From Rubrivivax sp. (GTDB lineage: Bacteria; Pseudomonadota; Gammaproteobacteria; Burkholderiales; Burkholderiaceae_C): a stretch of 55,734 nt of DNA. The notes under the pieces are model-generated. The model made no database searches. It saw only the letters and a list, made by a program, of their open reading frames with translations, and was not told the origin of the DNA. The DNA is taken from the NCBI GenBank assembly GCA_020848515.1, contig JADLIA010000058.1, positions 1 to 55,734 of the forward strand, given 5' to 3'. The position numbers were made by a program, and so were the translations under genes. Of this stretch, positions 181-55,690 are shown in pieces; position 1 is the first letter of the stretch; each line of letters begins with the position of its first letter.

Positions 181-232
181 ACTACCAAAACGATAGCTGC
201 TGGCGCTTGCCACACAAGCGCCAACCGCCATT
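181..232 (+). repeat. Dispersed palindromic element, copy 1
   Basis: Carries CGATAGCTGCTGGCGCTTG followed by an inverted CAAGCGCCA arm (stem 201–209 / 215–223, 9 bp). It lies between gltA and leuC. The rest of the 110–380 gap holds the gltA terminator and a possible leuC -10. Confidence 0.8.
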
Positions 233-359
233 CGGACAACATGGATTCGGACTGCCCCGCACCCCGCACACGGCCGACCATGACGGCGCGGCCCGGCATT
301 GGCACCTGCCCCAGGCTGACAGCCCACCTGCGCGGCTCCCACGACGCGCAGCCGCAGCA

Positions 360-365
360 TAGAAT
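360..365 (+). promoter_or_regulatory. Possible -10 box of leuC
   Basis: TAGAAT lies 15 bases before the chosen leuC ATG. No convincing -35 is visible 17 bases upstream. The same hexamer precedes the asd leader frame and acpP in this window, which is the main reason to list it. Confidence 0.3.
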
Positions 366-380
366 TTGACAATCACGAGA

Positions 381-1844
381 ATGGCCGACATGACCCCGCG
401 AACGCTGTACGACAAGATCTGGGACGAGCACGTCGTCCGCACCGAAGAGGACGGCACCGCCCTGCTCTACATCGACCGCCACCTGGTGCACGAAGTCACC
501 AGCCCGCAGGCCTTCGAGGGCCTGCGTCAGGCCGGGCGCAAGGTCTGGCGCACCAGCAGCGTGGTCGCCACGGCCGACCACAACACCCCCACCACCGGCT
601 GGGAGCGTGGCTACGACGGCATCGAGGACCCGATCAGCAAGGAGCAGATCGTCACGCTGGACGCCAACATGCAGGCCCACGGCGCCGCCGCCTACTTTCC
701 GTTCATGAACCAGCGCCAGGGCATCGTGCACGTGATCGGCCCGGAAAACGGCGCCACCCTGCCCGGCATGACGGTGGTCTGCGGCGACAGCCACACCAGC
801 ACCCACGGCGCCTTCGGCGCGCTGGCGCACGGCATCGGCACCAGCGAAGTCGAGCACGTGCTGGCCACGCAGACGCTGATCGCCAAGAAGGCCAGGAACA
901 TGCTGGTGCGCGTGAACGGCGCGGTGGCACCCGGCATCACCGCCAAGGACATCGTGCTGGCCATCATCGGCAGGATCGGCACCGCCGGCGGCACCGGCCA
1001 CACCATCGAATTCGCCGGCCAGGCGATCCGCGACCTGAGCATGGAAGGCCGTATGACGGTGTGCAACATGGCCATCGAAGCCGGTGCGCGCGCCGGCCTG
1101 ATCGCGGTGGACGACAAGACCATCGACTACGTCAAGGGCCGCCCCATGGCCCCCGGCACCGACCCCGTCACCGGCCGCTTCGTCGGTGGCCCCGAGTGGG
1201 ACCAGGCGGTCGCCAGCTGGCGCAGCCTGCGCAGCGATGACGGCGCCCATTTCGACACCGTGGTCGAACTCGACGCCCAAGCCATCGTGCCCCAGGTCAC
1301 CTGGGGCACCAACCCCGAAATGGTGGTCGGTGTCGACGCCAGGGTGCCCGACCCGGACAAGGAGAAAGACCCGGTGCAGCGCGGCGCCATGGAACGCGCC
1401 CTGGCCTACATGGGACTGATTCCCGGCAAGCCGATCGCCGACATCCACGTCGACAAGGTGTTCATCGGCAGCTGCACCAACAGCCGCATCGAAGACCTGC
1501 GCGCCGCCGCAGTGGTGGTCAAGCGCCTGGGTCGCCGGCTGGCGCCGAACGTGAAGCTGGCCATGGTGGTGCCCGGCTCGGGGCTGGTCAAGCAGCAGGC
1601 CGAGGCCGAGGGCCTGGACAAGATCTTCACCGCCGCCGGCTTCGAGTGGCGCGAGCCCGGCTGCAGCATGTGTCTGGCCATGAACGCCGACCGCCTGGAG
1701 CCGGGCGAGCGCTGCGCCTCCACCAGCAACCGCAATTTCGAAGGCCGTCAGGGCCAGGGCGGGCGCACCCACCTGGTCAGCCCGGCCATGGCCGCCGCAG
1801 CGGCCGTGCATGGCCATTTCGTCGACATTCGCCAGATCTCTTAA
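381..1844 (+). CDS. leuC: 3-isopropylmalate dehydratase large subunit
   Basis: Aconitase-family enzyme that isomerises 2-isopropylmalate to 3-isopropylmalate in leucine synthesis, as a heterodimer with LeuD. About 487 residues, the usual length. The [4Fe-4S] ligands are visible as Cys365 (IGSCTNSR) and Cys428/Cys431 (PGCSMC). The N-terminus [12 protein letters not shown] is typical of the family. The frame is open upstream to a TTG at 366; I prefer ATG 381, but ATG 390 (MTPRTLYD) is equally possible. It leads a leu cluster with the small lipoprotein gene, leuD and leuB, all on the plus strand. Confidence 0.95.
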
Positions 1845-1863
1845 CCCCCAGAAGGAGCTCATC

Positions 1864-1986
1864 ATGAAAAAAGTACTCGCCCTGGTTGCCGCAGCCCTGA
1901 TGCTGGCCGGTTGCAATACCGTGCAAGGCGTCGGCAAGGACGTGCAGAAGGCCGGCTCGGCGGTCGAGAACGCCGGCAAGAAGTAA
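1864..1986 (+). CDS. Entericidin A/B-like small lipoprotein
   Basis: A 40-residue gene with a strong ribosome binding site (GAAGGAGCTC, 1851–1860) five bases before its ATG. The protein is a Lys-Lys-led signal peptide with lipobox LAGC (Cys18), then [20 protein letters not shown] and a short Lys tail. This matches the entericidin A/B family of tiny lipoproteins. It sits between leuC and leuD with no metabolic link to leucine synthesis. The signal peptide and lipobox are seen; membrane anchoring follows from the motif; any bacteriolytic or stress role is only inferred from the E. coli relatives. Confidence 0.85.
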
Positions 1987-2176
1987 GCCCACGTTCGGCC
2001 CGCCCGCACTGGCCACACGCCCCCGGCGGGCGATGGCCAGGCTGCCATTCGCCCGACCACCCCAGGCGCACGCCCCGTGCGTGCGCCAGCGGTGGCTTGG
2101 GCGAAGCATTCCACCCGTCCATCATCGGGCGCCGCCGCTGCCCGCGCCCCAGCAACCCTTTCCTCGAACCCACGAC

Positions 2177-2833: not shown

Positions 2834-2868
2834 TGGCGCGGCGCCGCGGCCGCGCCCCTTGCTTCCAA

Positions 2869-2915
2869 GCCAAATCGGCCGCCAGCGCGCACCAGACAAG
2901 CGCCGGCAGCTATCC
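2869..2915 (-). repeat. Dispersed palindromic element, copy 2
   Basis: On the minus strand it reads GGATAGCTGCCGGCGCTTG, then a GCGCGCTGGCGGC arm and CGATTTGG. It fills most of the 101-base gap between leuD and leuB. Confidence 0.7.
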
Positions 2916-2934
2916 ATTCTGAAGTCTTTGCCAC

Positions 2935-4005: not shown

Positions 4006-4041
4006 AGATCGCCCGGCCCACCACCTGAGCGCCGCCGCGCC

Positions 4042-4087: not shown

Positions 4088-4100
4088 AAAAGCATTCCTA

Positions 4101-4160
4101 AGCTATCATTTGAATAGCTTCTGGCGCTTGCTGCGTAAGCGCCAGTTGCCATTTTGTTCA
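4101..4160 (+). repeat. Dispersed palindromic element, copy 3
   Basis: One of the best copies. A small AGCTAT…ATAGCT inverted repeat (4101–4119) is followed by a perfect 9-bp stem CTGGCGCTT (4121–4129) / AAGCGCCAG (4137–4145) and then TTGCCATTTTG. Confidence 0.85.
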
Positions 4161-4264
4161 TGATTCCGCGCGCAGGCGCGGGCGCCGGCCAGCCACTGTC
4201 GCCCCCACGCCGCAGGTGCCGCGTGCCGCGCAGGGGCAGTCGCCGCAGCGGCGCCGGCCTGCGC

Positions 4265-4270
4265 TAGAAT
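4265..4270 (+). promoter_or_regulatory. Possible -10 box of the asd leader transcript
   Basis: TAGAAT lies 9 bases before the ATG of the putative leader peptide, so a transcript from here would have almost no leader before that ATG. No good -35 is visible. Confidence 0.35.
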
Positions 4271-9430: not shown

Positions 9431-10158
9431 CACCCGTTTCCCTTGCGCTCGCCGGGGCGCGCACCCGCATCAAGATCTGTGGCCTGACGCGCGCGCAGGA
9501 CGTGGACGCCGCCGTGGCCGCGGGAGTGGATGCGATCGGCTTCGTGCGCTACCCCAGGAGCCCGCGCCACGTCGACATCCGGCGCGCCGCCGAACTGGCG
9601 CGCCGGTTGCCGCCGATGGTCACGCCGGTGCTGCTCTACGTCAACGCCGATGCTTCAGAAATCATAGCTGATTGCGCGCTCCTGATGGGCGCTACACTGC
9701 AATTTCATGGTGATGAATCAGCCGCCGACTGCGCCCGGGTGGCGGCCCGCTGCGGGCGCCCGTACTGGCGCGCGGCGCGCATCCCTGCGGGCGCCGCCGG
9801 CGCGTTCGACTTGATAGAATTTGCCCACGCCTTCGCCACGGCACAGGCCCTGCTGCTCGACGCCCATGTCGAGGGCTTCGGCGGCGGCGGAAAGACATTC
9901 GATTGGTCACTGCTGCCTCCAAACGTCGCCGCTCACCTCGTCTTGTCTGGTGGGTTGACACCTGCAAATGTGGGCGATGGCCTGCGGCTGCTGCGCGGCC
10001 GCGGGCGCTCGCTCGCGGTTGACGTCTCCAGCGGCGTCGAAGCCGTCGGCCCCGACGGCCAGCCCCTGAAGGGCATCAAGGACGCTGCCCGCATTTTTCA
10101 GTTCGTCGCCGCCGTGCGTGCGGCCGACGCCGCCCTTGCAGGATCGCCCCCGACATGA
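9427..10158 (+). CDS. trpF: Phosphoribosylanthranilate isomerase
   Basis: Amadori rearrangement of phosphoribosyl anthranilate, third step of tryptophan synthesis; a single TIM barrel. 243 residues. Motifs [12 protein letters not shown] (active-site Cys), ADASEII and [10 protein letters not shown] are seen. ATG 9427 overlaps the truA stop, and the TGA overlaps the trpB ATG. Codons from about 9651 to 9705 (TSEII-type segment, then [10 protein letters not shown]) look like an in-frame copy of the dispersed palindromic element, lying in the loop region after a beta strand. Confidence 0.94.
9653..9705 (+). repeat. Dispersed palindromic element, degenerate copy 4, inside trpF
   Basis: TCATAGCTGATTGCGCGCT, then TGGGCGCTACACTGCAATTT. 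It keeps the ATAGCT–NNN–TGCGC core and the GGGCGCT arm, with more drift than the intergenic copies. It is read in frame as I-A-D-C-A. Confidence 0.6.
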
Positions 10159-12253: not shown

Positions 12254-13126
12254 ATGAGCTGGCTCGAAAAACTCCTCCCGCCCAAGATCCAGAAAAGCGA
12301 CGCCGCCGAGCGGCGCCAGATGCCCGAGGGGCTGTGGATCAAGTGCCCGGACTGCGACACCGTCCTCTACAAGACCGACCTGGAGCAGAACCAGAACGTC
12401 TGCCCGCACTGCGGCCACCACCACCGCATCGGCGCGCGCGAGCGCCTGAACGCCTTCCTCGACGGCGAGGGTCGCTACGAGATCGGGCAGGAGGTGGTGC
12501 CGGTCGACGCCCTGAAGTTCAAGGACAGCCGCAAGTACCCCGAGCGCCTGAAGGAGGCGCTGGAAAACACCGGCGAAACCGACGCCCTGGTCGTCATGGG
12601 CGGCGCCGTCAGGAGCATCAGCGTGGTGGCGGCGGCGTTCGAGTTCGACTTCATGGGCGGCTCCATGGGCAGCGTGGTGGGCGAACGCTTCGTGCGCGGC
12701 GTGCAGACCGCGATCGAGCAGAAAGTGCCCTTCATCTGCTTTACCGCCACCGGCGGCGCGCGCATGCAGGAGGGCCTGTTCAGCCTGATGCAGATGGCCA
12801 AGACCAACGCCGCCCTCACCCAGCTGGCCAAGAAGGGCCTGCCCTACATCAGCGTGCTCACCGACCCGACCATGGGCGGCGTGTCGGCCGGCTTCGCCTT
12901 CGTCGGCGACGTGGTGATCGCCGAGCCCAAGGCGCTGATCGGCTTTGCCGGCCCGCGCGTGATCGAAAACACCGTGCGCGTGACCCTGCCCGAAGGCTTT
13001 CAGCGTGCCGAATTCCTGCAGCAGAAAGGCGCGGTCGATTTCATCTGCGACCGGCGCGAACTGCGCCAGAAGGTGGCCTCCATCCTGGCGATGCTGCAGC
13101 GCCAGCCGGCCGACGCCGTCGAGTAA
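12254..13126 (+). CDS. accD: Acetyl-CoA carboxylase carboxyltransferase subunit beta
   Basis: Transfers the carboxyl group from biotin to acetyl-CoA, with AccA, in fatty-acid synthesis. 290 residues. An N-terminal four-Cys zinc ribbon is seen (Cys31/Cys34 in CPDC, Cys50/Cys53 in CPHC). The crotonase-fold core has [22 protein letters not shown] and [14 protein letters not shown] ribosome binding site AAGGAAAG precedes the ATG. The trpFBA–accD order is usual in beta- and gammaproteobacteria. Confidence 0.97.
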
Positions 13127-13182
13127 AAAAACAGGCTGCAGCGCCCATGGGTGCAGCGCCGAAAGCTATCACATTGATAGCA
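13127..13182 (-). repeat. Dispersed palindromic element, copy 5
   Basis: On the minus strand: GCTATCAATGTGATAGCT, then TTCGGCGCTG, a GGGCGCTGCAG arm and a run of seven T residues. It directly abuts the accD stop. With its T run it could serve as the minus-strand terminator for the yggT gene read from the other side. The rest of 13183–13295 shows nothing recognisable. Confidence 0.7.
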
Positions 13183-13295
13183 ATTCGGGGTGGTGGCAGA
13201 ACCGGCCAGCGGGCCGCAGGGCCGAGCGGGCAGCGCCTCATGCGAGCTCGCGTTCAAAATGACCCTTGGGTCATGCATGTGAACGCGCAGCCGCA

Positions 13296-14633: not shown

Positions 14634-14643
14634 GGCTTCCGGA

Positions 14644-14701
14644 TACTATTCTTTTTATAGCTTGCGGCGCATGACAGACGGGCGTCAAAGGCCGATTTCA
14701 T
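14644..14701 (+). repeat. Dispersed palindromic element, copy 6
   Basis: TTATAGCTTGCGGCGCATG, then CGGGCGTC and GGCCGATTTC. It lies between the convergent ends of the LON-domain gene and the sugar transferase gene. Confidence 0.65.
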
Positions 14702-15327
14702 CTGGAATCCGGACGCCGCAGCACGGCCCGCAGCGTGTGCCACAGAATGCCCACATCGCCGGTCAGGCTGCGCTGCGCCACGTAGTCCAGGTAGTAGCGC
14801 TGCTTGATCGGCATGACCTGCTCGACGTAGGCACGCTCGGGATCGCTGGCGGCGGCCAGCAGCCGCTCTTCGTCCCGAAATTCGATCGACGCCCGGTCGG
14901 TCAGGCCAGGGCGCACCGACAGGATCAGGCGCCGCGCCTCGTCCGGGTACAGCGCCATGTAGCGCGGCACCTCGGGGCGCGGGCCGACCAGGCTCATGTC
15001 GCCGCGAACCACATCCAGCAACTGCGGCAGCTCATCCAGCTTGGTGCGTCGCAGCCAGCGCCCGGCCCGCGTCACGCGGGCGTCGCCGGCCACGGTGATC
15101 AGGGGCCCGCCGGCCACGGCCTGCACCTGCATGGTGCGGAACTTGTGGATGCGAAACAGCCGCCCGCCGCGCCCCACACGCGCCTGTCGGAACCACGCCG
15201 GCCCGGGCGAGTCGAGCCGCACCCACAGCGCGATGGCGGCCATCAGCGGCAGCGCCAGCAGCAGGGCCGGCAACGCCAGGGCCAGGTCGAACACGCGCTT
15301 GGCGGCGTCGGTGCTCGTGGTGCTCAT
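14698..15327 (-). CDS. Polyprenyl-phosphate sugar-1-phosphate transferase (small, PglC-like size)
   Basis: 209 residues of the bacterial sugar transferase family, which starts lipid-linked glycan synthesis by moving a sugar-1-phosphate from a nucleotide sugar to undecaprenyl phosphate. Visible are the N-terminal KRVFDLALALP and a re-entrant hydrophobic helix (about 15–36). The basic loop IHKFRTM, the catalytic Asp98-Glu99 in KLDELPQ, and GDMSLVGPRPE follow. It lacks the large N-terminal membrane domain of WbaP-type enzymes. It is last in the operon; its ATG overlaps the stop of the preceding gene (ATGA). Confidence 0.93.
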   Translation of the reverse strand: MSTTSTDAAKRVFDLALALPALLLALPLMAAIALWVRLDSPGPAWFRQARVGRGGRLFRIHKFRTMQVQAVAGGPLITVAGDARVTRAGRWLRRTKLDELPQLLDVVRGDMSLVGPRPEVPRYMALYPDEARRLILSVRPGLTDRASIEFRDEERLLAAASDPERAYVEQVMPIKQRYYLDYVAQRSLTGDVGILWHTLRAVLRRPDSR

Positions 15328-17228: not shown

Positions 17229-18293
17229 TCAGCGTGTCAGGCGGGTCGCCGCCTGCGGGGCGGCGCGCCGGCGCCACAGGCCCCAGACGCCGCGCCAGCT
17301 GCCCAGGCCATAGCCCAGGTGGTAGGCGGCGATCACCCACGGCAGCCGCCACGCCAGACGCGCCTCGCCGGCCTGGTGCGCCGCCTGCGCGCTGGCCGCC
17401 AGCAGGTAGGCGGCATAGGCCGCGGCCCAGGCCTTCAGACCAAGATCAAACACCGGAGCAAGCAGCGCGCAGAAAGCGCCAGCAGCTACAAAAACCATAG
17501 GAACGAGCTGCCGCACCGAGCCCGCCTGCCGGTGCTTGCGCAGCACGAAGGGGCGCCAGTAGCCGTATTGCATCTGCTGCTCGAAGAGCTGGCGCAGCGA
17601 ATCGCGCGGCCGGTAGCTGGAGTGAATGCGCCGGCTCTGCCAGATGCGACCACCGGCCAGCCGCAGGCGCAGGTTGTGCTCGTCGTCCTGGTTGCGCACC
17701 AGGGTTTCGTCAAAGCCGCCGACGCGCGCCAGGCTCGCGCGTGGCCAGCAGCCCAGGTAGACGGTATCGACCTCGCCTTCGAACGCCGCATCGCGCGAGC
17801 GCGCCCCGCCCACCACCCAGCGGCTCTGAAACGCCGCCGCGATGGCCCGCCCCCAGCCGCCCTGCCCGCGCGCCACCCAGGGGCCGCCCACGTTGTCGGC
17901 ACCGCTGCGCGCCAGCGCGGCGATGCATTCGGCGACATAGTCGGGGGCGAACCGGGTGTGGATGTCCATGCGCACGATCACCTGCCCGCGCGCCTGCGCC
18001 AGGCAGGCGTTCAGACCGCTGGAGACGATGCGCCGCGGGTTGTCCAGCAGGCGCAGCCGGGCATCGGCGGCGGCGCGCTCGGCCAGCCGCGCGCGCGTGC
18101 CGTCGTCGCTGGCGCCGTCGGCCACCAGCAGCTCCATGCGCCAGCCTTCGGGCAGGCGCTGAGCCAGCGCCGAGTCGCAGAAGGCGTCGATGTGGGCCCG
18201 CTCGTTGCGGCACGGCGCCACCACGCTCACCAGCCCGGCTTCGCCCGGCGTCAGCAGCTGCGGCAGCGGCGGCGTGGCCAGATCCTGCGTCAT
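17229..18293 (-). CDS. Glycosyltransferase family 2 with C-terminal membrane segments (ExoA-like)
   Basis: 354 residues. The GT-A domain runs about 20–235: [26 protein letters not shown], the metal-binding MDIHTRF (DxH variant) and [12 protein letters not shown]. Two or three hydrophobic segments follow (about 255–310), as in the succinoglycan ExoA group. Codons for [18 protein letters not shown] (17443–17500) coincide with a copy of the dispersed palindromic element, so part of the first membrane segment appears to be encoded by it. Starts overlapping the stop of the GT4 gene. Confidence 0.9.
17443..17491 (-). repeat. Dispersed palindromic element, copy 7, inside the GT2 gene
   Basis: On the minus strand TTGTAGCTGCTGGCGCTTT, CTGCGCGCTG, then GTGTTTGAT. 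The left half is nearly perfect; the right arm has drifted. It is read in frame as V-A-A-G-A. Confidence 0.7.
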
Positions 18294-23028: not shown

Positions 23029-23048
23029 GACCGGCCGAATCGTGGTCA

Positions 23049-23101
23049 GATCGGCATCCAGCGCTTACCCGGAAAGCGCAGGCAGCTATTGTTAATGTAG
23101 C
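23049..23101 (-). repeat. Dispersed palindromic element, copy 8
   Basis: On the minus strand GCTACATTAACAATAGCTG, then CCTGCGCTTTCC, a TAAGCGCTGG arm and ATGCCGAT. The main stem is CCAGCGCTT (23058–23066) / AAGCGCAGG (23074–23082). It lies between lysS and the small membrane-protein gene. Confidence 0.8.
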
Positions 23102-23116
23102 AACGGTGGAGGGGTT

Positions 23117-27717: not shown

Positions 27718-27727
27718 CAGCGGAACT

Positions 27728-27821
27728 CCCTCTCCCGCGTGCGGGAGAGGGCGGGGGTGAGGGTCTCGGCAAGAGGCGCTGCACCCCCTCACCCCCACCC
27801 TCTCCCCCAAGGGGGCGAGGG
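27728..27821. repeat. GC-rich double-hairpin element, copy 2 (pstB–phoU gap)
   Basis: CCCTCTCCCGC (27728–27738) / GCGGGAGAGGG (27741–27751) is a perfect 11-bp stem with a two-base loop. CCCTCTCCCCC (27798–27808) / GGGGGCGAGGG (27811–27821) has one mismatch. The inner flanks GGGGGTGAGGG and CCCCCTCACCCCC are complementary. Same architecture as the copy at 24792–24907. Confidence 0.75.
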
Positions 27822-27838
27822 AGTCAAGAAAGAACACC

Positions 27839-28540: not shown

Positions 28541-29256
28541 GAAAGCTGCCCACGATCCTGATCGTCGAGGACGAGCCGGCGATTGCCGAGCTGATTTCCG
28601 TGAACCTGCGCCACAACGGCTTCGCGCCCATCTGGGCCGAGGACGGCGACAGCGCCCAGCGCGAGCTCGATGCCGTGCTGCCCGACATGATCCTGCTCGA
28701 CTGGATGCTGCCGGGCCAAAGCGGCCTGGAGCTGTCGCGCAAATGGCGCGGCCACCCGCGCACGCGCGCCGTGCCCATCATCATGCTGACCGCGCGCGGC
28801 GACGAGCCAGACAAGATCGCCGGCCTGGACGCGGGCGCCGACGACTACATCACCAAGCCGTTCTCCACCCAGGAAATGCTCGCGCGCATCCGCGCCGTGC
28901 TGCGTCGGCGCGCGCCCGAGCACAGCGGCGAGAGCGTGGCCATCGGCGCGCTCTCGCTCGACCCGGCCACGCACCGCGTGAGCCACGCGGGCCAGCCGCT
29001 CAAGCTCGGCCCCACCGAGTTCAAGCTGCTGCACTACCTGATGCGCAACGCCGAGCGCGTGCACAGCCGCGGCCAGCTGCTCGACAAGGTCTGGGGCGAC
29101 CATGTCTACATCGAGGAGCGCACCGTGGACGTGCACGTCAAGCGCCTGCGCGAGGCCCTGGGCGACGCCGCCACCATGGTCGAGACCGTGCGCGGCGCGG
29201 GTTATCGGCTGACGGCCCAGCCAGACGCTAGCAAATCCATAGCTTCCGGCGCTTGA
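28537..29256 (+). CDS. phoB: Phosphate regulon response regulator PhoB
   Basis: 239 residues. The receiver domain (about 6–122) has acidic pocket Glu11/Asp12, phospho-acceptor Asp55 in LLDWMLPG and the Lys of TKPFS. The winged-helix DNA-binding domain (about 135–228) has GPTEFKLLHYLM, RTVDVHVKRLR and VRGAGYRLT. It should bind the box at 23643–23660. The last eight or so residues (…SKSIASGA) and the stop codon come from a copy of the dispersed palindromic element, replacing the usual short tail. Confidence 0.96.
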   Translation: MRKLPTILIVEDEPAIAELISVNLRHNGFAPIWAEDGDSAQRELDAVLPDMILLDWMLPGQSGLELSRKWRGHPRTRAVPIIMLTARGDEPDKIAGLDAGADDYITKPFSTQEMLARIRAVLRRRAPEHSGESVAIGALSLDPATHRVSHAGQPLKLGPTEFKLLHYLMRNAERVHSRGQLLDKVWGDHVYIEERTVDVHVKRLREALGDAATMVETVRGAGYRLTAQPDASKSIASGA

Positions 29257-29280
29257 TGCGCCTGCGCTGGAGCCCGATTT
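29228..29280 (+). repeat. Dispersed palindromic element, copy 9, forming the 3' end of phoB
   Basis: CCATAGCTTCCGGCGCTTG, ATGCG, then CCTGCGCTGGAGCCCGATTT. The phoB TGA (29254–29256) lies inside the GCGCTTGA part of the element, and the second arm extends past the stop toward phoR. Confidence 0.8.
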
Positions 29281-29301
29281 CTTCAGAATTGCTGCAAACC
29301 C

Positions 29302-31771: not shown

Positions 31772-31794
31772 GGGGCCTTTCGGTAAGCTCGGTG

Positions 31795-31852
31795 ACTACA
31801 ATTATCATAGCTTCTGGCGCTTGCCGGGAGCGCGCCAGAGCCGCTTTTCATT
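31795..31852 (+). repeat. Dispersed palindromic element, copy 10
   Basis: TCATAGCTTCTGGCGCTTG, CCGGG, AGCGCGCCAGAGCCGCTTTTCA. It fills the gap between acpS and nagZ; the acpS stop codon (31848–31850) lies in its right end. Confidence 0.8.
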
Positions 31853-32255
31853 CACGAACCGGCGGCAGGCGCTCGACCACGCAGAAGCTGGCCGCGTAGT
31901 CGCTCTCGTCGCTCACGCTGATGTGCGCCACCAGGTGCCGGGCCTCGAACCAGTCCTTCAGCGGTCCGTGCAACACGATGCACGGCTGGCCGCTGGGCTG
32001 GTTGGCGATTTCGCAGCGGCGCCAGTGCATGGGCATGCGCATGCCCAGGCCGACCGCCTTGGAAAACGCTTCCTTGGCCGAAAAGCGTGTGGCCAGGTAA
32101 CGCAGCCCGCGCTCGGGCCAGCGGGCGCTGCGGCGGCGCCACACGGCCAGTTCGGCCTCGCTCAGGATCTTCTGCGCAAAGCGCTCGCCGTGCCGCTCGA
32201 CGCTGGCGCGGATGCGGCGCACGTCGCAGATGTCGGTGCCGATGCCGTGGATCAT
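31848..32255 (-). CDS. acpS: Holo-[acyl-carrier-protein] synthase
   Basis: 135 residues. Transfers 4'-phosphopantetheine from CoA to the Ser of AcpP. The Mg-binding Asp8 is in [14 protein letters not shown] and the second acidic site in [31 protein letters not shown] closes the fold. ATG 32255 is chosen because the family starts MI-GIGTD; eleven upstream in-frame codons overlap the palindromic element. It follows pdxJ, a classical pairing in proteobacteria. Confidence 0.94.
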
Positions 32256-32266
32256 GGGATCAAGCT

Positions 32267-32316
32267 TGAATTCGCCTGCAACGCGCATGCAGCAAGCGCC
32301 GCAAGCTATTCATTCA
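32267..32316 (-). repeat. Dispersed palindromic element, copy 11
   Basis: On the minus strand GAATAGCTTGCGGCGCTTG, CTGCA, then TGCGCGTTGCAGGCGAATTC. It occupies the whole pdxJ–acpS junction; the pdxJ TGA lies at its left edge. Confidence 0.75.
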
Positions 32317-33066
32317 GGAGCGCCCGGCCTGGGCGATGCAGCTCAGGTAGGCCTCGGTGGTGGCGGCGTAGCCGCGCTCCAGCGCGTCGGCGATGAAGGC
32401 GTGGCCGATCGACACTTCCAGCAGCCCCGGCACGCGCGCCACGAAGGTGCCCAGGTTGTGCAGGTTCAGATCGTGCCCGGCGTTGACGCCCAGGCCGGCG
32501 TCGCCTGCCGCCTGCGCCGCGACGGCGTAGCGCTGCAGCTGGCGCCCTTGTTCGGGCGTGCCCCAGGCGGCGGCGTAGGGCTCGGTGTAGAGCTCCACGC
32601 GCTCGGCACCGACCGCGCGCGCGGCCGCCATCAGTTCGGGCAGCGGGTCCATGAACAGGCTCACGCGCACGCCCAGGCCCTGGCATTCGTCGATCAGCGG
32701 CCGCAGGCGGGCCGCCACGCCGGCGTCGGCCAGGTCCCAGCCGTGGTCGCTGGTGAACTGGTCTTCGCTGTCGGGCACGAAGGTGGCCTGCGCCGGGCGC
32801 ACGGCGCGGATGAAGTCCATCAGGTTCTGCGTCGGGTTGCCCTCGATGTTGAATTCACGCCCCGGCCAGCCGCGCATCAGCGCCGCCAGCGCATGCACGT
32901 CGTCGGCGCGAATGTGGCGCGCGTCCGGGCGCGGGTGCACGGTGATGCCGTGCGCGCCGGCCTGCAGGCACAGCTGGGCGGCGCGGGTGACGCTGGGAAT
33001 GCCCAGGTGGCGCGTGTTGCGCACCAGGGCGACCTTGTTGACGTTGACGGAAAGCTGGGTGGGCAT
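32314..33066 (-). CDS. pdxJ: Pyridoxine 5'-phosphate synthase
   Basis: 250 residues, TIM barrel, condensing 1-deoxyxylulose 5-phosphate with 3-amino-2-oxopropyl phosphate to pyridoxine 5'-phosphate. Visible are LSVNVNKVALVRNTR, GITVHPRPDARHIRADDV (active-site His/Arg), EFNIEGNP (catalytic Glu) and VNAGHDLNLHNL. Ends at the palindromic element before acpS. recO lies 23 bases upstream in the same direction. Confidence 0.96.
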   Translation of the reverse strand: MPTQLSVNVNKVALVRNTRHLGIPSVTRAAQLCLQAGAHGITVHPRPDARHIRADDVHALAALMRGWPGREFNIEGNPTQNLMDFIRAVRPAQATFVPDSEDQFTSDHGWDLADAGVAARLRPLIDECQGLGVRVSLFMDPLPELMAAARAVGAERVELYTEPYAAAWGTPEQGRQLQRYAVAAQAAGDAGLGVNAGHDLNLHNLGTFVARVPGLLEVSIGHAFIADALERGYAATTEAYLSCIAQAGRS

Positions 33067-33943: not shown

Positions 33944-34945
33944 TCATTCATAGCCGAAGCTGCGCACGCGCGCCTCGTCGTCGGCCCAGCCGGAGCGCAC
34001 CTTGACCCAGATTTCCAGGAACACCTTGGCGTCCAGCAGCTTTTCGAGCTCCTGGCGCGCTTCGGTGCCGATGCGCTTGAGGCGCTCGCCCTGCTGGCCG
34101 ATGACCATCGCCTTGTGGCCTTCGCGCTCGACCACGATGGTGGCGGCGATGCGCAGCAGGCGGCCGTGGGCACGGCTTTTTTCTTCCTTGAACTGCTCGA
34201 TCACCACGGTGGAGGTGTAGGGCAGCTCGTCGCCGGTGAGGCGAAACAGCTTTTCGCGCACCGTTTCGCTGGCCAGGAATTTTTCGCTGCGGTCGGTCAG
34301 TTCGTCTTCGCCGTACCACCAGGGCTGCTCGGGCAGGTAACGGGCGCAGATCTCCAGCAGGCGCGCCACGTCGCGCGGGTTCTTGGCCGACATGGGCACG
34401 AATTCGGCGAATGGGTGGCGCTCCTGCATGCCCTTGAGCCAGGGCGCGATCTCGGCGCGGCGGTGCACGCTGTCGAGCTTGTTGGCCACCAGCAGCGCCG
34501 GCGTGCCGGGCTTGAGCAGCGACAGCACCTTGGCGTCCTGCAGGGTGAAGCTGCCGGCCTCGACCACGAACAGCACCAGATCCACCCCGTCGATGGCGCC
34601 CAGCACCGTCTTGTTGAGCGATTTGTTCAGCGCCGTGCTGTGCCGGGTCTGAAAGCCTGGCGTGTCGACGAACACGTACTGCGTGCCACCGCCCTGCCCG
34701 TCGGGCAGCGTGCGTACGCCGGTGATGCGGTGGCGCGTGGTCTGCGCCTTGCGGCTGGTGATGCTGATCTTCTGCCCCACCAGGGCGTTGAGCAGGGTCG
34801 ACTTGCCGACGTTGGGCTTGCCGACGATGGCGATCAGGCCGCAGCGCTGCACGCTGGCCCCGGGATCGGGCGCGGATGGAGTGCCATATCGGGCTCCAGC
34901 GCGCTCTGGATCAGCGCCGTCAGCTATGATTTCAGGAGTATTCAT
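33944..34945 (-). CDS. era: GTPase Era
   Basis: 333 residues, somewhat longer than E. coli Era because of an N-terminal extension. Ras-like G domain with G1 GKPNVGKS (42–49), switch DTPGF, and NKLD; the C-terminal KH domain has [27 protein letters not shown]. Acts in 16S rRNA maturation and 30S assembly. The ATG overlaps the rnc stop. The first 20 residues ([20 protein letters not shown]) are encoded largely by a dispersed palindromic element copy; the GTPase fold begins only about residue 34. Confidence 0.96.
34884..34931 (-). repeat. Dispersed palindromic element, copy 12, encoding the Era N-terminal extension
   Basis: On the minus strand TCATAGCTGACGGCGCTGA, TCCAG, AGCGCGCTGGAGCCCGAT. Right half closely matches the phoB copy. 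Read in frame as I-A-D-G-A-D. Confidence 0.75.
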
Positions 34946-43242: not shown

Positions 43243-43719
43243 TCAGGGGCGCGAAGCCTGGGTCGCGGCGGGCGAAGGCGCGGCCGAATATAGCGCACAG
43301 CGCAGCAGGTGCCAGCGCGCCGGATCGTGGGAAGCCTGGGCCCACAGCCAGTGCGCACCCGCTTCGGCCGGGTCGCGAAAGCGCAGCAGCAGCCAGCGCT
43401 GGGCGTCCAGCCGCACCTCGACACCGGTGCCCTCGCCGCCCCGGTCCGGCTCGGTGCCAGGGGTGTGCAGCAGCCAGTGTTCGCCGGTCCAGCGCAGCTG
43501 CCTGGCCTCCTGCGCGCGCCAGAAGCGCCACAGCCCAAGCGTCACCAGCGCATTGATTGCTATGCTTAGCATAGCTGCTGGCGCAAGCTGGATAAGCGCT
43601 GGAGCCAAGAAATATGTCAAACCCAGGGCCAGCCAACCGGCCGCCGCCAGGCCCAGCAGCACGCGCGCCAGCGCGGCGCTGCGGCCGACCGGATAACTCA
43701 CGGCAGGGGCGTGGGCCAC
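43243..43719 (-). CDS. Hypothetical two-helix membrane protein (YgfX-like layout)
   Basis: 158 residues. Two membrane helices near the N-terminus (about 15–36 and 45–62) are followed by RFWRAQEARQLRWTGEHWLL and a soluble beta-rich domain (VEVRLDAQRWLLLRFRD). The layout resembles the YgfX/CptA family, but similarity is too weak for a firm call. It lies between fabF and rpoE. Codons for about LAPALIQLAPAAMLSIAI (43559–43612) come from a palindromic element copy in antisense orientation and form part of the second helix. Confidence 0.65.
   Translation of the reverse strand: MAHAPAVSYPVGRSAALARVLLGLAAAGWLALGLTYFLAPALIQLAPAAMLSIAINALVTLGLWRFWRAQEARQLRWTGEHWLLHTPGTEPDRGGEGTGVEVRLDAQRWLLLRFRDPAEAGAHWLWAQASHDPARWHLLRCALYSAAPSPAATQASRP
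43559..43612 (+). repeat. Dispersed palindromic element, copy 13, inside the YgfX-like gene (antisense)
   Basis: GCTATGCTTAGCATAGC is a perfect palindrome, then TGCTGGCGCAAG, CTGGA, TAAGCGCTGGAGCC. It is near-identical to the copy after fabD (47281–47328) in reversed position. Confidence 0.85.
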
Positions 43720-47262: not shown

Positions 47263-47280
47263 GATGGGCTCAGGAAAAAT

Positions 47281-47328
47281 GAAGAAAAAACACTCCAGCG
47301 CTTATCCAGCAAGCGCCAGCAGCTACAT
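47281..47328 (-). repeat. Dispersed palindromic element, copy 14, providing the fabH stop codon
   Basis: On the minus strand ATGTAGCTGCTGGCGCTTG, CTGGA, TAAGCGCTGGAG then a T-rich run. The TAG of TAGCTGC is the fabH stop (47325–47323). With the T run (TGTTTTTTC) it could also act as a partial terminator between fabH and fabD. Confidence 0.85.
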
Positions 47329-48303
47329 ATTGAGGAGCACCGCACCCCAGGTGAAGCCACCGCCCACGCCTTCCAGCAGCAGCGTCTGGCCGGGCTGAAT
47401 CTGCCCGCTGCGCACGCCGTGGTCAAGCGCCAGCGGGATCGACGCCGCCGAGGTGTTGCCGTGCTCGTTCACGGTGACGATCACCTTGTCCAGCGGCAGG
47501 TGCAGCTTTCTGGCGGTGCCGTGCATGATGCGCAGGTTGGCCTGGTGCGGGATCAGCCAGTCGATGTCGGCCTCGCTCTTGCCGGCCTTGGCCAGCACGG
47601 CGCGGGCGGCCTTGTCGAGCACGCCGACGGCCAGCTTGAACACCGCCTGGCCGTCCATCTTGAGCAGCGGATCGCCCAGCACCTGCCCGCCCGAGACGCC
47701 ACCGGGCACGCACAGGATGTCGACGTACTTGCCATCGGCGTGCAGGTCGGTGGCCAGGATGCCGGGCCGGTCGCTGGCTTCCAGCACCACGGCGCCGGCG
47801 CCGTCACCGAACAGCACGCAGGTGGTGCGGTCGCTCCAGTCGAGGATGCGCGAAAACACCTCGGCGCCGATCACCAGCGCGCGGCGCGCCGTGCCATTGG
47901 CGATCAGCGCATCGGCCACCGTGAGCGCGTAGACGAAGCCGCTGCACACCGCCTGCACGTCGAACACCGGGCAGCCGGCCATGCCCAGCTTGTGCTGCAC
48001 GATGGCGGCGGTGGACGGGAACACCATGTCGGGCGTCGAGGTGGCGACGATGATGAGGTCGATGTCTCCCGGCTGCAGCCCCGCCGCCGCCAGCGCCTGC
48101 CGCGCCGCGGGCACCGCCAGCTCGCTGGCGGGCACGTCGGGCGCCGCCAGATGGCGCGCACGGATGCCGGTGCGCTCGACGATCCATTCGTCCGAAGTCT
48201 CGATGCCGCGGCTGGCCAGCTCGGCCACCAGATCCGCGTTGGTGACGCGGCGCGGCGGCAGGTAGCTGCCGGTGCCGGTGATGCGGGAATAGCGTCTGCT
48301 CAT
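47323..48303 (-). CDS. fabH: 3-oxoacyl-[ACP] synthase III
   Basis: 326 residues. Starts fatty-acid synthesis by condensing acetyl-CoA with malonyl-ACP. Catalytic Cys120 is in [12 protein letters not shown], His in [10 protein letters not shown] and Asn in [13 protein letters not shown] 48303 ([16 protein letters not shown]) is preferred to ATG 48309. The stop codon is the TAG of a palindromic element copy, and the protein ends normally (GAVLLNM), so little or no sequence was added. Confidence 0.96.
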
Positions 48304-51876: not shown

Positions 51877-51934
51877 GGCGCTGCCGTCGCCGCCCCGAAC
51901 CGCCCTCCCATCACACCCAGACGGCAGCGCCGCC

Positions 51935-54190
51935 ATGTCCAAGCAACAAGCTCACCCCTCGCCATCGTCCGCCGCCAGCGGCGTGCCGGCCCTGTTTGAT
52001 CGCGCCGTGCGCCTGTTCAACGGCGGCCAGCCGGATCAGGCCGCCCCCTTGTGCCAGCAGGTGCTCCAGCAGCAGCCAAACCACGCCCATGCCTGGCAAC
52101 TGCTGGGCATGGTGCACGTGGTCGGCAACCGCCCGGCCGAGGCCCTGCCGGCGCTGCAGCGGGCGCTGGCGCTGAACCCGCGGCAGACCCAGATCCTGTG
52201 CCTGCTCGGCACGGTGCTTGCCCGACTGGGGCAATCCGAGCAGGCCATCGACCACTTCCGTCAGGCGCTCGCGCTGGCACCCCGGGACGCCAACATCTGG
52301 TACGACCTGGGCAACGTGCAGCACGGACTGGGTCAGCACCTCCAGGCGCTGGCCAGCCATGATCGGGCGCTGGCGCTGGCCCCGGGGCACGCCGACGCCT
52401 GGCTCAACCGCGGCCATGCCCTGCTGGAACTCCACCGCCTGGGCGACGCCATCGCCAGCTTCGAGCGCGCCATCGACCTGCGCCCCCGGGCCAGCACCTG
52501 GCTGTTGTTGGGCAGCGCGCTGGAGCAGGCGCAGCGCCTGCCGGACGCGCTGGCCTGCTTCGAGAAAGTCGTGGCCCTGGAGCCGGACAACCTGGACGGC
52601 TGGCTGAAGTTCGGCGGCGTGCTGCTGCAGCTTGGACGCCCCGACCTGGCGCTCGAACGCATCGAGGTGGCGCAGCGCCTGGCGCCGCAGTCGCCCCGCG
52701 TGCTGCTGACCCAGGCGGCCGCCCTGGCCAAGACCCGCGGCGACGCGGCGGCGCTGGTGCCGCTGCTGCAAGCCCATGCGCTGGCACCCGACGATCTGTC
52801 CGTCTCCATGCAGTTGCTGTACTTCATGCTCAAGACCGCCCACTGGGAAGGTCTGACCGAGGTATTGGCTCAGACGCTGCGCCACTGGCGCGCCGGCGCC
52901 CGCGACGCCAACACGTTGACGCTGCTGGCCCACCCCGACGTCGGCGCCGCCGATCTGCTGCAGATTGCGCAGGCGTATCACGCCCCACTCAACGACGCCT
53001 TTCGCGCCATGCACGCGAAGGTGGCGCGTGGCGCACCGGCCGGGCGCCGGCTGCGACTGGGTTACCTGTCGTCCGATCTGCGGCACCACGCAGTCGGCTT
53101 TCTGATGACCGGCGTGTTCGAAGCCCATGACCGCCAGCGCTTCGAAACCTTCGCGTTCTCCATCTACCCGCAACCCGATCGGTCGCCCGAGCGGCAGCGC
53201 GCGCAGGCGGCCTTCGATCATTTCATCGACATCCACCACCTGGGCGATGACGAGGCCGCCGCCCTGATCGCTGGCCACGGCATCGATCTGCTGGTCGATC
53301 TCAACGGCCTGACCACCTTCAGTCGGCCCGGCATCCTGGCCCGCCGGCCAGCGCCGGTGCAGGTGCAGTACCTCGGCTTCCCGGGCACCAGCGGGCTGGC
53401 GGCGATCGACTACATCCTTGGCGACCGCTGGGTCACGCCGGTCGAGCTGGCGCAGGCGTTTTCCGAACACATCGTGCGCATGCCCGACTGCTTCCAGGCC
53501 AACGACGACCAGCGCCGCATCGCGGCCGCAACCCCGACCCGCCGGGAACTGGGGTTGCCGGACCAGGGCTTCGTGTTCTGCTGCCTGAACAACAGCTACA
53601 AGATCCTGCCCGGCGTGTTCGATGGCTGGATGCGGCTGCTGCAAAACACACCCGGTTCGGTGCTGTGGCTGCTGGGCGACAACGACACCGCCCGCAGCAA
53701 CCTGCGCGCCCACGCGCAGGCGCGCGGGGTGGCGCCCGAGCGCCTGGTGTTCGCCGAACGGCGGCCCTACGACCAGTACCTGGCCCAGTATCGCCAGGCC
53801 GATCTGTTCCTGGACACGCTGCCCTTCAACGGCGGCACCACGGTCAGCGATGCGCTGTGGGCCGGTCTGCCGGTGCTGACCCAGGTCGGCGACCGCTTTG
53901 CCGGCCGCATGGCCGCCAGCCTGCTGGACTGCATCGGCCTGCCCGAACTGATCACCCACAGCCAGCCCGAGTACGAGGCGCTGGCGCATCGGCTGGCCAC
54001 CGAACCGGGGCTGCTGCCGGGCCTGCGCGATCGACTGGCCGCCAACATCCGGACCCGCCCGTTGTTCGACACGCGCCGCTTCACCCGCCACCTGGAGCGC
54101 GCCTTCGAGCACATGATCGAGCGCCACGCCCAGGGCCTGCCGCCGCAGGGCTTCGACGTGGCGGAGCTGCCGCCAGCAGCGTCGACCTGA
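51935..54190 (+). CDS. TPR–GT41 glycosyltransferase (O-GlcNAc-transferase-like)
   Basis: 751 residues. The N-terminal half (about 15–340) is a run of tetratricopeptide repeats (for example HAWQLLGMVHVVGNRPAEAL and NIWYDLGNVQHGLGQHLQAL). The C-terminal half (about 370–735) is a GT41 domain: LRLGYLSSDLRHHAVGF, DLLVDLNGLTTFSRPGI, QVQYLGFPGTSG, FCCLNNSYKILPGVFDGW and DTLPFNGGTTVSDALWAGLPVL. No signal peptide. It probably glycosylates Ser/Thr (or Asn) of cytoplasmic proteins, but the donor sugar and targets are unknown. A longer frame from 51860 overlaps the previous gene and is less likely. Confidence 0.92.
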   Translation: MSKQQAHPSPSSAASGVPALFDRAVRLFNGGQPDQAAPLCQQVLQQQPNHAHAWQLLGMVHVVGNRPAEALPALQRALALNPRQTQILCLLGTVLARLGQSEQAIDHFRQALALAPRDANIWYDLGNVQHGLGQHLQALASHDRALALAPGHADAWLNRGHALLELHRLGDAIASFERAIDLRPRASTWLLLGSALEQAQRLPDALACFEKVVALEPDNLDGWLKFGGVLLQLGRPDLALERIEVAQRLAPQSPRVLLTQAAALAKTRGDAAALVPLLQAHALAPDDLSVSMQLLYFMLKTAHWEGLTEVLAQTLRHWRAGARDANTLTLLAHPDVGAADLLQIAQAYHAPLNDAFRAMHAKVARGAPAGRRLRLGYLSSDLRHHAVGFLMTGVFEAHDRQRFETFAFSIYPQPDRSPERQRAQAAFDHFIDIHHLGDDEAAALIAGHGIDLLVDLNGLTTFSRPGILARRPAPVQVQYLGFPGTSGLAAIDYILGDRWVTPVELAQAFSEHIVRMPDCFQANDDQRRIAAATPTRRELGLPDQGFVFCCLNNSYKILPGVFDGWMRLLQNTPGSVLWLLGDNDTARSNLRAHAQARGVAPERLVFAERRPYDQYLAQYRQADLFLDTLPFNGGTTVSDALWAGLPVLTQVGDRFAGRMAASLLDCIGLPELITHSQPEYEALAHRLATEPGLLPGLRDRLAANIRTRPLFDTRRFTRHLERAFEHMIERHAQGLPPQGFDVAELPPAAST

Positions 54191-54268
54191 GGATTCGGCC
54201 GGAACGCGGCGGCCGACCGCCGGCCATCTGCGGGCCGGCGCCGCGCCCTACGGCCGCCTGTGTTGGGC

Positions 54269-55225
54269 TCAGCGCCAGCCCGGCGCGCCGCGCAGCGCCG
54301 CCAGCGCCCCCTCGCCGACCTGCGCCCCCAGCCGCTTGGCAAAGCGCTCGGCGAAGTTCTGCTTGTTGGTGTAGTCCACCAGCTTCTCGGCCTTCACCAC
54401 CTCGCGCGCCACCATGTCCAGGCTGCCAAGCTGGTCGGCCAGGCCGAGCTGCACCGCCTGCTCGCCGGTCCAGAACAGGCCGCTGAACATGTCCGGGGTT
54501 TCCTTCAGGCGCTCGCCACGGCCCTGGCGCACCACGTCGATGAACTGCTGGTGGATCTGGTCCAGCATGCGCTGGGCATGGGCGCGGTGGGCTTCGGACT
54601 GCGGGCTGAAGGGATCGAGAAAGCCCTTGTTCTCGCCCGCCGTCAGCAGCCGGCGCTCGACGCCCAGCTTTTCCAGCGCCCCGACGGCACCGAAGCCGTC
54701 GATCAGCACACCGATGCTGCCCACCAGGCTGGCCTTGTCGACGTAGATGCGGTCGGCGGCGGCGGCGATGTAGTAGGCCGCCGAGGCGCAGCTTTCTTCC
54801 ACCACGGCGTACACCGGCTTGTCGTGCAGCGCGCGCAGGCGGCGCACCTCGTCGTGGATCAGGCCCGCCTGCACCGGGCTGCCGCCGGGCGAGTTGATCA
54901 GCAGCACCAGCGCCTGCGCGCCCTTGTCTTCCATGGCGCTGCGCAGCGCGGGCAGGATGTACTCGGCGCTGCCCTCGCCGGTGTCGCTGATCTCGCCCTT
55001 GATCGACACCATGGCGGTGTGGGCGCTGCTGGGCGTGGCGCTGGGCAGGTGGTCGGACCACAGCAGCCAGGCCAGGGCGCCGATCAGGCCCAGCCACAGC
55101 GCGGTGCGCAAGGTGCGCCAGCGGCGCGCGGCGCGGCGCTCGCGCAGCTCGGCGAACAGCAGTTTCTCGATCGTGGCGCGCTCCCAGGGCACCGGCTGGC
55201 CGTTCACATGCACTTCGTTTTCCAT
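54269..55225 (-). CDS. sppA: Signal peptide peptidase-type S49 protease
   Basis: 318 residues, the short single-domain SppA type. One membrane helix (about 40–57) and an outside Ser/Lys protease domain. Nucleophile Ser148 (CASAAYYIAAAADRIY) and Lys200 (GENKGFLDPFSP) are 52 residues apart, as in B. subtilis SppA. LINSPGGSPVQAGLIHDEV is the substrate-groove motif. It degrades leftover signal peptides. The ATG sits on the edge of a palindromic element. Confidence 0.92.
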   Translation of the reverse strand: MENEVHVNGQPVPWERATIEKLLFAELRERRAARRWRTLRTALWLGLIGALAWLLWSDHLPSATPSSAHTAMVSIKGEISDTGEGSAEYILPALRSAMEDKGAQALVLLINSPGGSPVQAGLIHDEVRRLRALHDKPVYAVVEESCASAAYYIAAAADRIYVDKASLVGSIGVLIDGFGAVGALEKLGVERRLLTAGENKGFLDPFSPQSEAHRAHAQRMLDQIHQQFIDVVRQGRGERLKETPDMFSGLFWTGEQAVQLGLADQLGSLDMVAREVVKAEKLVDYTNKQNFAERFAKRLGAQVGEGALAALRGAPGWR

Positions 55226-55265
55226 AGCTTGTGGCGCTTGCTGCGCAAGGGTTTGAACTTGATTT
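55217..55265 (+). repeat. Dispersed palindromic element, copy 15
   Basis: CCATAGCTTGTGGCGCTTG, CTGCG, CAAGGGTTTGAACTTGATTTG. The CAT at its left end is the start codon of sppA on the other strand. It fills the gap to the Rieske gene. Confidence 0.75.
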
Positions 55266-55283
55266 GAGGCTCGGCCTTGGGCT

Positions 55284-55661
55284 TCAGAAGGCGATCGGCC
55301 GCAGCGCCCCGGTGGGCTGCCAGTGCACCTGGCCGGCCGCTTCGATCAGCTCGATACGAACCAGCTGCGCGCCGCTGCAGGGGCCGGCCACGCAATGGCC
55401 GGTGTCCGGGGCGTAGGTGGCGCCATGGGTGGCGCACAGCAGCCATTGGCCGCTGTCGTCGAAAAAGCGGTTGGGCTGCCAGTCCATTTCCATCGGCACA
55501 TGGGCGCAGCGGTTGAGGTAGGCATGCGCCCGGCCTTCGAAGCGCACGGCAAAGGCGCGCAGGTTTTCGCCACCATGCGCGACGTCGAACGGCACCGCCA
55601 GCCCGCCTTCCTGCAGGTCGGCGCTGTCGCACAGGTAAACCGGGCTCAGATCGTTGTCCAT
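55284..55661 (-). CDS. Rieske [2Fe-2S] domain protein
   Basis: 125 residues, a stand-alone Rieske ferredoxin-like protein. Cluster ligands Cys52/His54 (NRCAHVPMEMDW) and Cys76/His79 (LLCATHGATYAPDTG) are all present. No signal peptide or Tat motif. It lies before sppA. Its electron partner is unknown. Such proteins occur beside sppA and a HAD phosphatase in related bacteria; only the beginning of that next gene's region is in the window. Confidence 0.9.
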   Translation of the reverse strand: MDNDLSPVYLCDSADLQEGGLAVPFDVAHGGENLRAFAVRFEGRAHAYLNRCAHVPMEMDWQPNRFFDDSGQWLLCATHGATYAPDTGHCVAGPCSGAQLVRIELIEAAGQVHWQPTGALRPIAF

Positions 55662-55690
55662 ATTGCGCCAGCAGCTATCAAATCAATAGT
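55659..55690 (-). repeat. Dispersed palindromic element, half copy 16
   Basis: On the minus strand CTATTGATTTGATAGCTGCTGGCGC followed at once by AATATGG, the Rieske start codon. The right arm is missing. The window ends about 45 bases further on with nothing definable. Confidence 0.65.

Follow-up and report, generated by a model that had tools for sequence, protein, structure and literature searches.

Repeats in the window

The window, meaning the whole 55,734-nucleotide stretch analysed, is contig JADLIA010000058.1 of a Rubrivivax sp. genome (GCA_020848515.1), with gene nicknames inferred from Pfam families and gene order. An earlier note on this DNA named 16 copies of a dispersed palindromic element. 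Indeed, an exact pattern search found RTAGCTNNNKGCGC at all 16 of these places and no 17th match in the window; eight copies lie on each strand.

Copy 1 (178..244, +) is flanked by an ORF truncated at the edge of the window and by a leuC-like gene of the aconitase family. Copy 2 (2862..2928, -) occupies a leuD-leuB type gap that has a same-orientation copy in both congeners, G015 and G146, while copy 3 (4099..4165, +), with both hairpins well formed, follows the leuB-like gene. Copy 4 (9649..9715, +) is in frame within trpF (PRA isomerase), and similar aligned sequence occurs in G015, G146, and a further genome, G004. Three copies lie in convergent gaps: copy 5 (13118..13184, -), behind an accD-like gene, where G015 has a copy in the same orientation at another position and G146 has none; copy 6 (14642..14708, +); and copy 8 (23038..23104, -), which has the top genome score among the matches listed for model R1, built from window copies. 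The weak copy 7 (17438..17504, -; 19 bits) is inside a glycosyltransferase ORF, ~210 bases before its stop, and copy 9 (29224..29290, +), at a junction of the phoB-phoR type, overlaps the response-regulator ORF at its end.

Copy 10 (31792..31858, +) occupies a 76-bp gap that separates a nagZ-like from an acpS-like gene, and its counterparts in G015 and G146 have the same orientation. Copy 11 (32258..32324, -) follows in the acpS-like/pdxJ gap, where G146 has a same-orientation match (14 bits) and the G015 gap has no match. Copy 12 (34876..34942, -) is in the era-rnc gap, where G146 has a copy in the same orientation; the two genes as called in G015 overlap. Copy 13 (43556..43622, +) is downstream of a fabF-like gene and upstream of an rpoE-type gene group, and copy 14 (47275..47341, -) is in the 60-bp fabD-fabH gap, overlapping the end of fabH; G015 shares the orientation of both, and the fabD-fabH gap of G146 has no match of at least 10 bits. 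Copy 15 (55209..55275, +) is in a peptidase S49/Rieske gap with a weak, opposite-orientation match in G015 (11 bits), and copy 16 (55627..55693, -) overlaps the called start of a Rieske-domain gene. In all, three copies (those at 9653, 17443, and 55659) overlap called genes by more than half of the core defined below.

The window gave no Rfam match at the gathering score. As the earlier note had observed, no transposase is near: none appears among the Pfam matches (E<=1e-6) of 55 of the 57 called window genes, three of which had no match, the two unscanned ORFs being of 36 and 41 codons. As a separate observation, part of the Pfam family DUF1010 is suggested to be the repeat in translation.

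Copy number and controls

The window's own genome contains 402 exact matches to the pattern versus 35 with the pattern read backwards; extended by a second GCGC, the pattern has 271 matches versus 0. A profile HMM seeded with 53 copies from this genome yielded 263 matches of at least 10 bits in 803 kb from the own genome, G015, and G146, and none in Markov-1 shuffles or reversed DNA. At a threshold of at least 5 bits, there were 354 real, 12 shuffled, and 8 reversed matches. After overlap removal, 230 copies remain in these 803 kb, 16 of them in the window. Densities in the genus of 0.24-0.31 copies per kb extrapolate to ~600 copies in the own MAG, which is incomplete, and ~1,200 in a complete congener.

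Unit, core, and hairpins

HMM column conservation defines a polar unit of ~66 bp with sharp edges (model positions 5-71), larger than the ~45–60 bp first estimated, and reveals no terminal inverted repeats at those edges. The consensus is 5'-CT-N9-RTAG-CT-N4-GCGC-N11-GCGC-...-ATTT-3', with the tag tetranucleotide ATAG in 145 and GTAG in 18 of 188 copies. It includes two short dyads of equal 11-bp inner spacing, CT-N11-AG and GCGC-N11-GCGC. The consensus does contain the first of the two adjacent hairpins originally described, although good conservation is limited to its CT and AG.

The kept sequence core is CT-N9-RTAGCT-N4-GCGC, and A22 G23, T10, and C9 are among the best-kept bases of the unit. 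In 116 copies retrieved with a model restricted to the right half (1 match in shuffled and 0 in reversed DNA), conservation was 94% at T10, 99% at A22, 100% at G23, 99% at C24, 94% at T25, 97-99% over GCGC, 85% at C9, and 86% at T21, with the remaining left-half positions at 31-82%. The core conservation is seen separately in G000 (33 copies) and G015 (79 copies).

In the lower stem, positions 24-53 form Watson-Crick pairs in 151 of 188 copies and 25-52 in 98, around an unpaired base 26. The compensatory base changes predicted by the earlier note were sought in the 16 and in the 188 copies and found in neither set; the arms are complementary in the consensus, and the paired columns vary independently. 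Folding of 60 copies goes only slightly beyond that of 60 other gaps, with median z values of -0.99 and -1.10 compared with -0.49. Positions 56-66 include TTTT in 77 of 188 copies and AAAA in 22. Paired copies are scarce (4 of 201 neighbour distances <150 bp), and copies do not form REPIN-type inverted pairs.

Genomic placement

Copies sit behind stop codons and avoid divergent gaps. Of 225 classified copies, 168 lie between called genes, compared with ~17% of random positions, and 57 lie inside; the gene calls come from an in-house script with rough starts, and some of the 57 are start errors. Among gaps of at least 60 bp, a copy is present in 110 of 274 tandem, 34 of 60 convergent, and 9 of 81 divergent gaps. 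Several copies also separate housekeeping genes that run in the same direction, in gaps of 60-101 bp (for example fabD/fabH, era/rnc, and leuD/leuB). Within element-rich stretches, a copy is found no more than 60 nt from the stop in 126 of 704 ordinary genes, in minus orientation in 60 of them. Orientation does vary, as had been noted: it is random relative to genes (55 same vs 65 opposite in tandem gaps) and stands at 52:51 relative to replication in 18 stretches where the skew is weak.

Conservation at homologous sites

The main feature that the earlier note overlooked is that the conserved core is held at homologous sites. We compared copies with their best homologous sequence from a different genome, after excluding subjects that had been retrieved because they carry the motif. 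Identity was 574/649 (88.4%) in the core, 1794/3068 (58.5%) in the rest of the unit, and 3959/5900 (67.1%) in the 50-bp flanks; the right GCGC, counted apart, was identical at 187 of 236 positions (79.2%). The core was above the rest in 54 of 59 copies and below it in 5, some pairs being counted from both sides. With all subjects included, the core was above the rest in 72 of 78 (67 of 73 without reciprocal pairs), and by base type the core reached 0.92 (G/C) and 0.83 (A/T) compared with 0.59 and 0.62 in the rest. This unequal drift suggests selection on the core rather than dead repeat DNA. Copies vary widely in sequence, yet the short core persists across species.

Presence and absence of copies between relatives had also been predicted. 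Sites do differ between species: among gaps with at least one copy, window and G015 share 6, with 2 in the window only and 4 in G015 only, and window and G146 share 4, with 2 in the window only. At least one "window only" case, era-rnc, is a gene-call effect, since the aligned G015 DNA keeps the core. However, where the window and a congener both hold copies in a gap, orientation agrees in 9 of 10 comparisons, so independent insertion at one site is unlikely. In close pairs (84-93% identity), 21 of 23 comparisons were gapless, 2 partial, and none absent, at loci partly chosen by motif. In a larger set, 112 were aligned (the subject need not score as an element), 10 partial, and 1 absent, and absence is under-counted because alignments break at indels. 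Among sampled stretches of nine genomes (6-118 copies each), no pair of copies exceeded 0.81 identity. When copies of one 20-kb stretch were compared with the whole of G015, the closest relatives listed had 91% identity across 54 bp and 93% across 44-46 bp. Because this search scored 40 of 1177 candidates and was crowded by another repeat, copies may still be moving slowly.

The RAYT homologue

The earlier note also recommended a search for a REP-associated tyrosine transposase (RAYT), and a homologue is present in the own genome. A profile built from 16 RAYTs has matches in 190 of 200 family genomes and also matches the TnpA_REP structure PDB 4er8 (E 5.7e-6), and the homologue adjoins gltB wherever the locus was read. 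By Pfam Y1_Tnp alone, RAYT had seemed absent from G141, G095, G196, and the own genome, and the profile found homologues in all four; neither method found one in the 70%-complete G040 and G163.

The one homologue found in the own genome, an incomplete MAG, has lost its catalytic residues, while the G015 RAYT has its motifs intact. H-x-H is present in 54 of 65 aligned sequences and missing in 11, including that of the own genome, although 10 of the 11 were chosen because their Pfam Y1_Tnp match was nil or weak. RAYTs without H-x-H occur in element-rich genomes (own genome, G136, G141), and the dead copies related to that of the own genome look constrained. At their ends, the RAYT units have inverted repeats of a GGGGWSAS-like type rather than REPs. 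An element copy of at least 6 bits lies within 60 nt behind the RAYT stop at 7 of 53 loci, all 7 in inverted orientation (6 of 23 loci from genomes at or above twice the control, 1 of 30 from others). Compared with 60 of 704 ordinary genes with an inverted copy within 60 nt, this is at best a weak excess, and the RAYT loci share one ancestral position.

Taxonomic range and prior record

Clear enrichment (at least 40 matches and at least twice the control) was found in 25 of 200 family genomes; RAYT presence therefore does not predict the repeat, as the homologue is near-universal. Within our sample, enrichment is confined to part of one family, Comamonadaceae-type genomes; the class sample included only three genomes from the family and a single further one from the order, which is a weak test of the limit within the order.

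We found no named family for this repeat in the literature searched; however, motif pairs from two genomes had already been reported in 2017. Table 7 of that paper lists ATAGCT(N)22CAAAAG in Polaromonas naphthalenivorans CJ2 (125 copies) and GCTTAT(N)5AAGCG in Acidovorax ebreus TPSY (114 copies), both unnamed and termed "potential novel motifs," and argues against a promoter role for the two pairs (PMC5217627). Both match our consensus in register and have similar gene context, and, judged from the published motifs, they very probably belong to the same repeat family. Unlike the present description, section 13 of the paper defines neither a unit nor a range and includes no structure test or connection to a RAYT (PMC5217627).

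Origin and possible function

With moderate confidence, we favor an old REP-like family of Comamonadaceae-type genomes, spread by a RAYT and now kept as putative binding sites. Of the earlier REP/MITE-type assignment, the REP-like part agrees best with the data, given a copy number in the hundreds, the location behind genes, RTAG by a stem-loop, and a RAYT homologue in the genome; the MITE part fits poorly. By analogy with E. coli TnpA_REP, which requires both GTAG and a bulge and cleaves at a CT adjacent to the REP (PMC8266576), the gltB-adjacent RAYT/TnpA_REP-type protein would read the core through a CT cleavage dinucleotide, a GTAG-like guide, and a stem with unpaired bases. This protein probably spread the copies long ago via single-stranded intermediates, and the copies may now be retained as binding sites of the cell, no longer for movement. 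The placement behind genes is as described for REPs (PMC3733652).

An unlikely alternative is that a host protein unrelated to RAYT, such as a nucleoid or topology factor, binds the copies as double-stranded sites, with the hairpins a by-product of the dyads. A sequence-specific core without covariation, held at homologous sites, would be expected of such sites, as would folding barely beyond that of other gaps and the absence of orientation preference to genes or, within the weak skew, to replication. However, the polar unit, its sharp edges, and the uneven abundance among related genomes make the repeat look spread, and RTAG by the stem with CT upstream would be a coincidence.

It is improbable that the copies are functionless mobile-element fossils whose core seems kept because they were copied from core-intact parents. 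The scarcity of close relatives, both among the sampled copies of nine genomes and among the scored candidates in G015, agrees with this, but loss of function predicts equal rates, while the core diverges less than the rest and the flanks at homologous sites; the agreement in orientation makes independent insertion at the same site an unlikely way out. Less probable still are intrinsic transcription terminators or 3' mRNA stabilizers: despite the location downstream of stop codons and within convergent gaps, the TTTT runs, and the published argument against a promoter role (PMC5217627), copies show no orientation preference to the preceding gene, some have AAAA instead, compensatory changes are absent, and copies lie within the short co-directional housekeeping gaps. 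Finally, mobilization as a MITE by the transposase of an ordinary IS would agree with the defined ends and high copy number but is very improbable given no visible terminal inverted repeats at the edges and no transposase among the scanned window genes.

A stronger form of the REP-like reading, which we consider rather doubtful, is a domesticated REP system, in which a near-core RAYT-derived protein has repeatedly lost its chemistry and been kept as a DNA-binding protein, with about a thousand sites per genome under selection. If true, REP-like sites would be held by selection as binding sites of a RAYT-derived protein. Whether REPs are parasites or of use to the cell is an open question; it is testable here because the core is kept between species and the genus includes RAYTs with motifs (G015) and without (own genome). 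The repeat family is also now available to name and mask in Comamonadaceae genomes.

Comparison with known systems

The closest known systems are the GTAG REPs and REPtrons (PMC3733652, PMC8266576), which share with our repeat the high copy number, the position mostly behind genes, a stem-loop by RTAG with CT upstream, and a RAYT homologue. Because the tag is mostly ATAG rather than GTAG, we term the repeat a variant of the GTAG REP. It further differs in its ~66 bp unit, the extra AT-rich 5' hairpin, the near lack of paired copies, and the core held at homologous sites; unlike in REPtrons, the RAYT is flanked by GGGGWSAS-like repeats. Flanks of that type place the RAYT near the TIRYT/TIRtron as described in PMC3733652, while the dispersed repeat itself differs.

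The Beta-proteobacterial repeat element BRE is likewise small and dispersed, and some of its host genera are shared, but its published features differ: ~90 bp, a mean of 69% GC in Bordetella copies, sometimes tandem, and at most 29 copies per genome reported (PMC3110155). The Rickettsia RPE, CGTC-tagged according to PMC3733652, likewise has some copies inside genes, but its tag and host are different, and our repeat is mostly intergenic.

Copy number and taxonomic range

The motif is present at all 16 places in the window where the earlier note had placed a copy of a dispersed repeat family. In the window's own genome (G000), the 14-base pattern has 402 matches against 35 when read backwards, and the longer pattern with a second GCGC has 271 against 0. 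Wider scans bear out a dispersed family: a covariance model of the 16 copies yielded 69 matches in 275 kb of this genome (two antisense on another match) and, across 128 kb from two congeners, 47 matches (four overlapping another match). A profile HMM at ≥10 bits gave 263 matches over 803 kb; shuffled and reversed sequence gave none. Removal of overlaps reduced the 263 to 230 copies. With 67 copies in 275 kb of G000, and a total of 114 over 400 kb of evenly spaced stretches of G015, a complete congener, extrapolation gives ~600 and ~1,230 copies, respectively; six further family genomes (98-100 kb each, same model) had 0.07-0.18 copies per kb.

By our count, the pattern is clearly above its control in 25 of 200 family genomes, and abundance can vary widely within one genus (e.g., 357 vs 76). 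In a class-wide sample of 369 genomes, which includes only one genome of the order from outside the family, the longer pattern matched at least once in 21: 271 times in the own genome, 20 in a genome of the same family (G128), and at most three in every other. Named contigs among the matches listed belong to Acidovorax, Simplicispira, Giesbergeria, Comamonas, Ottowia, Alicycliphilus, Extensimonas, and Paenacidovorax; the remainder are MAGs with broad names. No paper naming the family appeared among the titles listed in literature searches mostly outside subscription journals.

Anatomy and core conservation

Information exceeds background from model position ~5 to ~71. The two adjacent hairpins proposed earlier can be drawn (7-12 with 20-25, 27-35 with 43-51), but their paired columns vary independently, and the compensatory base changes expected of them did not emerge: Watson-Crick cells number 1062 vs 1040 expected in helix 2 and 675 vs 687 expected in helix 1. 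Computed folding energies of the copies showed nothing distinctive.

To avoid circularity, conservation of the left core was assessed in 116 copies found with the right half of the unit only. Left-core positions are 94-100% conserved, except C9 (85%) and T21 (86%), and non-core left positions reach 31-82%; the left-core mean is 97% in G000 (33 copies) and 94% in G015 (79 copies). At homologous DNA of other genomes, identity is 88.4% in the core, 58.5% in the rest of the unit, and 67.1% in the flanks, with the core/rest contrast seen in 54 of 59 copies (nine gapped comparisons left out). Query copies were score-selected; subjects were unselected, except own-genome subjects on contigs from match lists. 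The comparisons are less independent than the Wilcoxon p of 2e-10 implies: some pairs enter twice, once from each side, and several comparisons share genomes.

RAYT homologues

In the search for a REP-associated tyrosine transposase (RAYT) raised in the earlier note, a profile of 16 RAYTs matches 190 of 200 family genomes (173 of 178 good-quality ones), once in 157 and two or three times in 33 by our count. Pfam Y1_Tnp matches 146 of the 200. The own-genome RAYT is an intact ORF of 223 aa (L294:1821-2492; own-genome C76:38320-38976) with HEL at the H-x-H site and W in the Tyr column, and its protein matched no Pfam family. There is possibly a second RAYT in this genome, since the MAG is 77% complete. 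Behind the RAYT in G000 and G015 lies an ORF named from its sequence as glutamate-synthase-like, and similar ORF starts follow RAYT at many loci read.

H-x-H is absent from 11 of 65 aligned homologues (L294, L048, L286-L293, L295), mostly chosen for examination as Pfam missed them; all 11 are intact ORFs and non-Tyr in the Tyr column. Nei-Gojobori dN/dS, with synonymous sites near saturation, is 0.17 for the pair G095/G196, both without the motifs, 0.25 and 0.35 for G000 against G095 and G196, 0.65 for G000 against motif-intact G015, and 0.13, 0.29, and 0.40 for three motif-intact pairs.

The repeat may be tied to the RAYT, because its core is REP-like by comparison with PMC8266576, inverted repeat remnants sit behind some RAYT stops, and no other candidate came up. 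Separately, G015 carries an IS200-type transposase with five copies split into two frames at one common place (e.g., C1:112876-113234) alongside four intact ones.

DUF1010 cassettes and other repeats

Three class 1 integron cassettes on plasmids of Klebsiella, E. coli, and Agrobacterium carry DUF1010 (PF06231) ORFs (E 1e-26 to 4e-33) that start within, or pass through, a stretch resembling the repeat: 92% over 39 bases (ORF L237:1352-1525), 84% over 37 bases with E only 0.1 (L238:1351-1596), and 89% over 38 bases (L239:1352-1597). Its minus-strand frame reads like ..SSAC-ASASSY. To judge from these sequences, the repeat in translation seems to make up roughly the first third of the DUF1010 family.

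Another repeat, ~110 bp long and rich in GC (L106:8584-8738), recurs at other places in G015 in at least 25 longer matches, with identities of 73-87%, and may be BRE-like. In the window, a pstB-like gene for an ABC transporter is separated from phoU by a stretch with a 39-nt inverted repeat of CCCTCTCCC type (27725-27824, 87% complementary).

Position relative to genes

By the gene calls, 168 of the 225 copies that were classified are intergenic, and the other 57 fall within genes. One of the window's copies (9649-9715) is in frame within trpF and includes an ATA codon, which is rare at the GC content of this genome; similar sequence also occurs in G015, G146, and G004. For gaps ≥60 bp, copies occupy 110 of 274 tandem, 34 of 60 convergent, and 9 of 81 divergent ones (divergent vs other, Fisher p 1.7e-8). 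Orientation is variable, as first noticed in the window, with 55 copies in tandem gaps along the gene direction and 65 against; in G015, we found no replication-strand preference (52 vs 51, in 18 of 20 stretches). This gene context resembles that of an Acidovorax ebreus motif, for which PMC5217627 gives 107 of 114 copies as intergenic, in 44 convergent, 4 divergent, and 59 co-oriented gaps.
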